A stretch of DNA of 64,000 nucleotides from Ignisphaera cupida (GTDB lineage: Archaea > Thermoproteota > Thermoprotei_A > Sulfolobales > Ignisphaeraceae), in the NCBI RefSeq assembly GCF_030186535.1, contig NZ_JASNVW010000001.1:1-64000 (forward strand), read 5' to 3'. Positions 14,110 through 41,954 of the stretch are shown piece by piece; the first letter of the stretch is position 1, and every line of letters begins with the position of its first letter. Position numbers and translations under genes: made by a program. The notes under the pieces were generated by a model that had not been told where the DNA came from, ran no database searches, and saw only the letters and a list, made by a program, of their open reading frames with translations.

Positions 14110-14194
14110 GCGGGGGTGCCCGAGCCAGGTCAAAGGGGTCGGGCTGAGGCCCCGATGGCGTAGGCCTGCGTGGGTTCGAATCCCACCCCCCGCA
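14110..14194 (+). tRNA. tRNA-Leu(GAG)
   Basis: Acceptor GCGGGGG pairs with CCCCCGC. The anticodon stem TCGGG/CCCGA encloses the loop CTGAGGC, giving anticodon GAG. A long variable arm (class II) and the T arm GTGGG-TTCGAAT-CCCAC follow; the discriminator is A. CCA is not encoded. No intron. Two stretches, 14131-14141 and 14162-14171, are complementary to the two guides of the C/D box RNA at 32206-32266. Confidence 0.97.
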
Positions 14195-31991: not shown

Positions 31992-32068
31992 TTACTACAT
32001 CTAAGTTATGAAAATAATATATGCACGGAGGGATAACCGAAACAAAACATGTGAGCTATGAAAATTGG

Positions 32069-32141
<73 letters not shown>

Positions 32142-32205
32142 ATGTACACAACAGTTTTTAATTATATAAACGCTGGTTAAAAAGCGTATAATGTGCATGT
32201 AGAGA

Positions 32206-32266
32206 ATGATCAGCCAAAGGGGTCGCATCATCTCTTTCTATTAGGCCTGCGTTTATCATCATCTAT
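32206..32266 (-). ncRNA. C/D box sRNA with two guides matching tRNA-Leu(GAG)
   Basis: Read on the minus strand: C box ATGATGA (32256-32262), an 11-base guide TAAACGCAGGC, a D'-like CTAA, a spacer, C'-like ATGATGC, then the guide GACCCCTTTGG and D box CTGA (32210-32213). The plus-strand copies CAAAGGGGTCG (32215-32225) and AGGCCTGCGT (32243-32252) are identical, in the same order, to 14131-14141 and 14162-14171 of the tRNA-Leu(GAG) gene, so both guides can pair with one tRNA. A TATA-like CTTATAAAGC lies about 37 bases upstream of the C box. The rest of 32142-32481 holds the aspS promoter and nothing else I can identify. Confidence 0.75.
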
Positions 32267-32481
32267 TTTGTGTTGCTTGTCATAGTAATCCTATTGATTG
32301 CTTTATAAGCTTTGTGTTATCAGAAACAAAATCTATGTTGCAAAGAGTTCAGTTTAAAGCATGATTGTTTAGTTTTTCTATGTTCTAGGAAAAGTTCTTG
32401 CCAAGAGCTTAGAACTTATAAAAATATTTTAGGAAGTATTATAATCTATGCTGATTGTCTATAGATTTGGGTAGCTAGACT

Positions 32482-33789
32482 ATGGAGACAAGATACAAAA
32501 ATGTTATGTGTGGTGAAATTACAAAAGAGTTTAGAGGAAAGGAAGTGGTAATTGCTGGATGGGTTCATCAGATAAGGGATCTTGGTGGGAAAAAATTCAT
32601 AGTTATTAGAGATTCTAGTGGTGTTGTGCAGGTTACTATATCAAAAGATGCTGCATCAAAGAATTTACTTAGTGTTGTTGAGGAGCTAACCTTTGAATCT
32701 GTTGTGCAGATAAGGGGTGTTGTTAAAGAGGATCCAAGAGCACCAAGAGGAGTTGAAATAGTGCCTCATGAAATCAAGTTACTTAGTGTTGCAAAAAAGC
32801 CACTACCTTTGGATATCAGTGGTAAGGTTCCTGCAGACATTGATACAAGACTTAGGGAAAGGGTTTTAGATTTGAGAAGAACTGAGATGAGAGCTATTGT
32901 TAAAATAGGTGACACAGTTTTGAAGACCATTAGAGAGGTGTTGCGAAGTCTTGGATTTGTTGAGGTTTTCACACCAAAAATAATAGCCTCTGCAACTGAG
33001 GGTGGGGCAAGCCTGTTTCCAGTGATATATTTTGGTAAAGAGGCTTTTCTTGCCCAAAGTCCTCAGCTTTATAAGGAGTTGTTGGCAGCATCACTTGAGA
33101 GAGTATTTGAAATAGCACCTGCTTGGAGAGCTGAGGAAAGTGATACTCCATATCATTTAGCTGAGTTTATTAGTATAGATATTGAAGCAGCGTTTATGAA
33201 TTATGAGGATGTTATGAAAATTCTTGAAAAGGTTATATATGAAGTTGTAAAAGCTGTTAAGCAAGAAAATGAATATGAGCTCAAGGTATTAAACTATATA
33301 CCACCTGATGTTTCCTTGCCTTTACCAAGAATAAAATATATTGATGCTGTGAAAATGCTTAGAGACAGGGGTGTAGCGATAGAACCTGGTGAAGACTTGT
33401 CAACAACGCATCTAAGAATTTTGAGTGAAGTCATCGAATCTCCTCTATACTTTGTTACAGAGTTTCCAACGAAAATCAGAGCTTTTTATACAAAACCAAA
33501 AGATGATGATCCTACCTATAGTGAAAGCTTTGACTTAGTGTGGAAACACCTAGAACTTGCTTCTGGTAGCTCAAGAATTCATCAAAAAGAACTGTTAATA
33601 GAGGCATTGAAAGAGCGTGGATTAAATGTTGAAAGCTTTAGCTTCTTCCTAAAATGGTTTGACTATGGAATGCCTCCGCATGCTGGCTGGGGCATGGGAT
33701 ACTCTAGGCTGCTTTTAATGCTTACTGGAAGAAGCAGTGTCAAAGAGGTAACATTATTCCCAAGAGATAAGAAAAGGCTTATTCCCTAG
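32482..33789 (+). CDS. aspS: aspartyl-tRNA synthetase (archaeal type, possibly Asp/Asn)
   Basis: 435 residues. N-terminal OB anticodon-binding domain (EVVIAGWVHQIRDLGGKKFIVI), class II motif 2 (FEIAPAWRAEES, TPYHLAEF), and motif 3 (MGYSRLLLMLTGRSSVKEVTLFPRD). Charges tRNA-Asp and, in many archaea lacking AsnRS, also tRNA-Asn; which applies here cannot be settled from the window. ATG start after a TATA-like region near 32440. Converges with truD with a 4-base overlap. Confidence 0.95.
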   Translation: METRYKNVMCGEITKEFRGKEVVIAGWVHQIRDLGGKKFIVIRDSSGVVQVTISKDAASKNLLSVVEELTFESVVQIRGVVKEDPRAPRGVEIVPHEIKLLSVAKKPLPLDISGKVPADIDTRLRERVLDLRRTEMRAIVKIGDTVLKTIREVLRSLGFVEVFTPKIIASATEGGASLFPVIYFGKEAFLAQSPQLYKELLAASLERVFEIAPAWRAEESDTPYHLAEFISIDIEAAFMNYEDVMKILEKVIYEVVKAVKQENEYELKVLNYIPPDVSLPLPRIKYIDAVKMLRDRGVAIEPGEDLSTTHLRILSEVIESPLYFVTEFPTKIRAFYTKPKDDDPTYSESFDLVWKHLELASGSSRIHQKELLIEALKERGLNVESFSFFLKWFDYGMPPHAGWGMGYSRLLLMLTGRSSVKEVTLFPRDKKRLIP

Positions 33790-41573: not shown

Positions 41574-41657
41574 CAGTACTAACTCTGATTTTATGTGAGC
41601 ATTATAAGCTTTAATTCAAAACAATTTCTTAAAAAAAAAAAGAATTTAGTTTAGTGG

Positions 41658-41764
41658 AGCCGGGGCCGGGATTCGAACCCGGGAATTATCGGGTCTCGAC
41701 AGGCGGTTTCTTAGCCGGAAAGCCCGCTGCAGCCCGACGCCTTAGACCTCTCGGCCACCCCGGC
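41658..41764 (-). tRNA. tRNA-Cys(GCA) with 32-base intron
   Basis: Acceptor GCCGGGG/CCCCGGC with discriminator U (as in tRNA-Cys). The anticodon stem TCGGG/CCCGA encloses CTGCAG, then a 32-base intron (41695-41726), then A. Anticodon GCA. The intron sits at the canonical 37/38 position and can form a bulge-helix-bulge-like fold. Mature length is about 75. Confidence 0.93.
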
Positions 41765-41838: not shown

Positions 41839-41954
41839 TGCCGCCGGGGGGATTTGAACCCCCGACCTCCCGGTCTTCAGCTTCGCCGAACACCTGTGCC
41901 AAAGTTTCCTGGCACAGGTGTTCACGGGCGCTCTCCCAGCTGAGCTACGGCGGC
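41839..41954 (-). tRNA. tRNA-Phe(GAA) with intron inside the anticodon stem (30/31)
   Basis: Acceptor GCCGCCG/CGGCGGC with discriminator A. Removing the 43-base segment 41882-41924 restores stem CCCGG/CCGGG and loop CTGAAGA with anticodon GAA; with it in place the stem cannot form. The intron therefore lies between positions 30 and 31, not at 37/38. It contains a perfect long hairpin (GAACACCTGTGCCA and its complement). Mature length 73. Confidence 0.9.

Follow-up and report, generated by a model that had tools for sequence, protein, structure and literature searches.

The question raised by this locus is whether a short intergenic stretch of the Ignisphaera cupida window (the whole 64,000-nt stretch of DNA analyzed here) encodes a guide RNA with both of its guides directed to tRNA-Leu, and what such an RNA would do to its target. 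An earlier note had placed a C/D box sRNA at 32206-32266. Its sequence and coordinates are right, and the sRNA lies on the minus strand.

Boxes, guides, and neighbors of the sRNA

Minus-strand positions 32262-32210 read as a C/D box sRNA with boxes C, D', C', and D at archaeal spacing, arranged as ATGATGA-TAA-ACGCAGGCCT-AATAGA-AAGAG-ATGATGC-GACCCCTTTGG-CTGA, that is, C box, D' guide, weak D' box, C' box, D guide, and D box. The core from C box to D box is 53 nt inclusive (32210-32262, minus strand) by sequence reading and a 13-sequence alignment, and the mature RNA is probably this core with a few bases on each side, about 32206-32266. The C box, ATGATGA (32256-32262), is of the RUGAUGA type with TGATGA invariant in every orthologue, and the D box, CTGA (32210-32213), is likewise invariant; the class is defined by such a pair about 50 nt apart. 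Between them on the same strand are the D' guide ACGCAGGCCTA (32242-32252), a clear C' box, ATGATGC (32225-32231), located by the alignment and a strict scan, and the D guide CGACCCCTTTG (32215-32225), with guide lengths of about 11 and 13 nt where 10-12 nt is the rule. The D' box region, AATAGA (32237-32242), has an uncertain exact register, varies among the orthologues, and is degenerate in most of them. The four boxes had been listed before as C, D', C', and D-like, and all are there, but the qualifier was misplaced: the D box is a full CTGA, and the degenerate box is D'.

Scanned strictly for C/D boxes on both strands, the full 64-kb window yields 1 candidate, 32262-32210. Rfam gave sub-threshold C/D hits only, the best archaeal one being sR18 with 15.6 bits against a threshold of 45; since the Rfam C/D families are guide-specific, missing that threshold does not disqualify the RNA from the C/D class. 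Folded alone, the sRNA does no better than shuffled sequences, as expected for a C/D RNA.

The sRNA is flanked on its 3' side by a tRNA-Ala(GGC) gene on the same strand (32066-32141, minus, from the tRNA scan) and on the other by an open reading frame starting at 32482, which we take from its sequence to be aspartyl-tRNA synthetase. A TATA-like element, CTTATAAAGC (32300-32309, minus), lies 5' of the sRNA and is a possible promoter for it. A second TATA-like element can be read in front of tRNA-Ala, so the two genes may be transcribed separately. Between them on the minus strand is ACGCTTTTTAACCAGCGT (window 32170-32187), whose core CTTTTTAACCAGC is found again at this place in several orthologous loci, for example in genomes G005, G006, and G004; it may be the terminator of the sRNA or an upstream element of the tRNA promoter. 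Elsewhere in the window, intron-containing tRNA-Cys(GCA) and tRNA-Phe(GAA) genes lie at about 41655-41764 and 41839-41954 on the minus strand, beside tRNA-Val(GAC); the default tRNA scan missed both, and they were found with introns allowed.

Pairing with the leucine tRNAs

The plus strand at 32215-32225 is identical to positions 14131-14141 of tRNA-Leu(GAG) (CAAAGGGGTCG), a gene at 14110-14194 on the plus strand, and hence the minus-strand sRNA is antisense to tRNA-Leu. A second segment, TAGGCCTGCGT, is shared between 32242-32252 and tRNA-Leu 14161-14171. Each guide forms 11 uninterrupted Watson-Crick pairs with tRNA-Leu, with duplex energies of -21.6 kcal/mol for the D guide on 14131-14141 and -22.4 kcal/mol for the D' guide on 14161-14171, and the D guide pairing extends to 12 bp if one G-U is counted. 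The earlier note gave the match lengths as 11 and 10; the first figure stands, and the second is 11 as well.

That such a double match is unlikely by chance, as had been claimed, is borne out by 150 first-order Markov versions of the window. Single matches to tRNA-Leu had means per simulated window of 1.8 for 10-mers and 0.35 for 11-mers, and an ordered pair of matches of at least 10 within 60 bases appeared in 0 of the 150. As a yardstick for the guide pairing, which was scored against tRNAs, the chance of 8 uninterrupted bp with tRNA-Leu is 0.5% for a random 12-mer, and that of 11 bp about 0.005%.

The naming of a single target, tRNA-Leu(GAG), proves too narrow. A search of the other leucine tRNAs, proposed as a check, finds both segments identical in CAG and UAG, while UAA has one base changed in the D-guide segment. 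Pairing is thus 11+11 bp for Leu CAG, UAG, and GAG, the three for which the duplex energies above hold, and 8+11 bp for UAA, and neither guide makes more than 8 bp with any non-Leu tRNA recovered from this genome. These four isoacceptors are the leucine set recovered here; tRNA-Leu(CAA), which was not among them, has both segments in relatives, and the first of them there bears the UAA-type change. By sequence complementarity, then, the predicted target is the leucine isoacceptor family rather than one tRNA. The sRNA locus is intergenic, outside any intron of a target tRNA, and 18 kb from tRNA-Leu(GAG), the nearest leucine tRNA gene.

Conservation and a second sRNA family

Using BLAST and a sequence model, orthologues were found in 10/10 other genus members and, elsewhere in the family, in G013, G015, and G017. 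The full-length sRNA is therefore present in 11/11 genus genomes and 3 further family genomes, 14 in all, and the box pair, whose absence from relatives had been named as a ground for doubt, is kept in every one of them. When the 13 orthologues are aligned, the C and D boxes and the guide cores are almost invariant and the spacers and flanks diverge. Gene context changes as well: in 8 of the 11 genus genomes the sRNA lies 5' of a tRNA-Ala(GGC) gene with the same orientation, and it follows tRNA-Val at roughly 15-25 nt in G001 (L006), G007 (L010), and G008 (L008), a spacing that suggests tRNA-sRNA cotranscription in those three. All 6 substitutions in the guide interiors keep the pairing as G-U, a modest statistic given that they represent at most 5 independent events, and the 7 substitutions that break pairing with the consensus tRNA are all at guide edges. 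In one case, the I. aggregans orthologue (G009:C1:50030-50084, minus strand), an edge change from A to U faces a U-to-A change in 3 of that genome's 5 leucine tRNAs. Because tRNA-Leu is almost invariant among these genomes, guide/target covariation is hardly informative.

Outside the family, no full copy of the sRNA was found among 229 genomes of the class. A scan for the two-guide pattern through 84,980 named species genomes gave six archaeal and three bacterial records; at least four of the six archaeal records are family genomes already in the comparison, and three bacterial ones are about the number expected by chance. Weak model or pattern matches outside the family were rejected, some being in coding sequence, such as the three f9 matches that read as the protein start MSPRRP, and others without boxes. 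In another family of the order, locus L159 (G201:C181:2805-2851, match f7) is C/D-like: its D' guide is CGCAGGCCT, and its D guide looks similar to an antisense of the D-arm/anticodon stem of tRNA-Leu; judged by its sequence, it is a possible independent double guide.

Another C/D sRNA with tRNA-Leu guides is present in five genomes: L226 in G009 (C1:901090, plus strand), L225 in G012 (C84:2141, minus), L230 in G017 (C20:10043, minus), L232 in G014 (C83:2909, minus), and L157 in G011 (C42:about 13273, plus). Its D' guide, of the CGCCATCG type, selects U44: it pairs where the anticodon stem ends and with the variable arm's 5' side. In G011 this match is 7 uninterrupted bp only. The D guide matches tRNA-Leu too in four of the five genomes: in G011, G014, and G017 it is GACCCCTTT, which selects A22 as in the first sRNA, and in G012 it is AAGACCTAGCAT, which makes 8 bp with the D-loop and selects U17; the D guide in G009 has no match to tRNA-Leu. 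Since G011, G014, and G017 were found by way of the D guide or the model, their D' match is an independent observation. The pattern that brought up G009 and G012 already contained the D' guide, so the independent part is their boxes and, for G012, the second guide. With a second family also pairing two guides with tRNA-Leu, double guiding of tRNA-Leu has been kept as individual guides changed. The original proposal of two tRNA-Leu guides is thus supported by the boxes, the 11+11 bp, the conservation in 14 genomes, and this reuse of tRNA-Leu as a guide target.

Predicted sites, rival readings, and known systems

C/D guides select their target nucleotide by the D+5 rule (PMC4644070). Applied to the D guide, whose 11 bp span the position, the rule gives A22 (14134) at the edge of D-loop and D-stem, in standard tRNA numbering as assigned in this analysis. 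The D' guide has its 11 bp in the variable arm/T-stem; if D' directly follows CCT, it selects C14166, on the variable arm's 3' strand. Given the degenerate D' box, the predicted second site could be anywhere in 14164-14167; it is uncertain and may not be methylated. The likeliest role of the sRNA is to direct 2'-O-methylation of A22 and of a base near the variable arm's 3' side; perhaps it also holds the tRNA open.

From the observed boxes, pairing, restriction to leucine tRNAs, and conservation, we infer with good confidence an archaeal C/D box sRNP that would direct 2'-O-methylation of the leucine isoacceptors at A22 and, in the variable arm, at about C14166. The sRNA would be transcribed from the minus strand and assembled with L7Ae, Nop5, and fibrillarin. 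On tRNA-Leu precursors, the D guide would pair with the 3' side of the D-arm, and the D' guide with the beginning of the T-stem and the variable arm's 3' side. One target segment touches the D-stem and anticodon stem, the other the variable arm and T-stem. Each is one strand of core stems, so the RNP has to meet the tRNA while it is unfolded or partly folded, before or during folding, and it may help tRNA-Leu to fold.

The folding role could even be the main one, with the sRNA an RNA chaperone that bridges from the D-arm to the variable/T region; methylation would then be incidental or confined to one site. Both guides do fit one molecule, binding one strand of each of several stems, the D' box is degenerate, and a chaperone role has been proposed for double-guide rRNA sRNAs (PMC4644070; PMC7994747). 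We nevertheless think this unlikely, as the D box and D guide are near-invariant and the A22 register of the D guide is fixed in both sRNA families, as expected if the methylated position matters; methylation is what a C/D RNP is expected to produce, and fixed A22 and U44 registers across the sequences support it. It is quite improbable that one guide works on rRNA or another RNA and matches tRNA-Leu secondarily. Archaeal C/D guides mostly aim at rRNA, with 56% against 16% for tRNA in Pyrobaculum in the summary of Lui 2018 given in PMC7994747, and the guide comparison here covered tRNAs, the 16S having gone unmatched in the genome copies; yet both guides match a single tRNA family at 11 bp, for which a random 12-mer has a chance of about 0.005% each, and relatives have substituted other tRNA-Leu guides. 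As to the 16S, neither an archaeal model in the genome of this window (G000) nor a core motif in G000, G006, and G009 found a match in genomes rated 99% complete, so the rRNA is probably masked or missing in the sequence copies. Finally, the plus-strand order of the two segments is that of the tRNA, as it would be in a tRNA-Leu gene fragment, decayed antisense or duplicated, that makes no guide RNA, but the intervening sequence is unlike tRNA, and boxes and guides are conserved across 14 genomes while the rest diverges; this refutes a fragment origin, which we reject as extremely improbable.

The reading as a two-site methylation guide can be set against known systems. As summarized from Lui 2018 in a 2021 review (PMC7994747), archaeal C/D sRNAs directed to tRNA use one guide, the other being without a target. 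Like those of Pyrobaculum in that summary, the Ignisphaera sRNA is free-standing, and a guide to shared sequence can serve several tRNAs, but here both guides match tRNA-Leu. The known dual-guide exception is in the intron of pre-tRNA-Trp (sR50 of Pyrococcus), directing Cm34 and Um39 and tested in Haloferax (PMC7994747). It too has both guides on one tRNA and two 2'-O-methylations there, which for tRNA-Leu are predicted; unlike it, the Ignisphaera sRNA does not reside in an intron of its own target, and it would serve several isoacceptors. The double-guide sRNAs proposed as chaperones also place two guides on nearby segments of one molecule, in their case rRNA rather than tRNA (PMC4644070). 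For P. furiosus, PMC7668247 gives a guide to G47 of tRNA-Leu(UAA), predicted in snoRNAdb, and that site went undetected by mass spectrometry (PMC7668247), which counts against the two-site methylation reading; it is likewise in the variable region of tRNA-Leu, but it belongs to another lineage and is likened by site, not by sRNA sequence. In S. acidocaldarius, there are methylated tRNA nucleotides for which no guide is known (PMC7668247).

A free-standing sRNA with both guides on one tRNA family departs from the single-guide pattern stated for tRNA-directed archaeal C/D sRNAs. If the sites are methylated, it would add 2'-O-methylations in the core of a class II tRNA and offer a compact system for asking whether double-guide sRNPs fold their targets. 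More tentatively, dedicated double-guide C/D sRNPs might mature tRNA-Leu in Ignisphaera and its relatives, acting both as methylation guides and as tRNA-specific folding chaperones that pair with both halves of the unfolded core, with two sRNA families carrying interchangeable guides to the variable arm and to positions 17, 22, and 44. Inside a single archaeal family, guides have changed from one sRNA family to the other, which shows how tRNA guides evolve while the target is kept.
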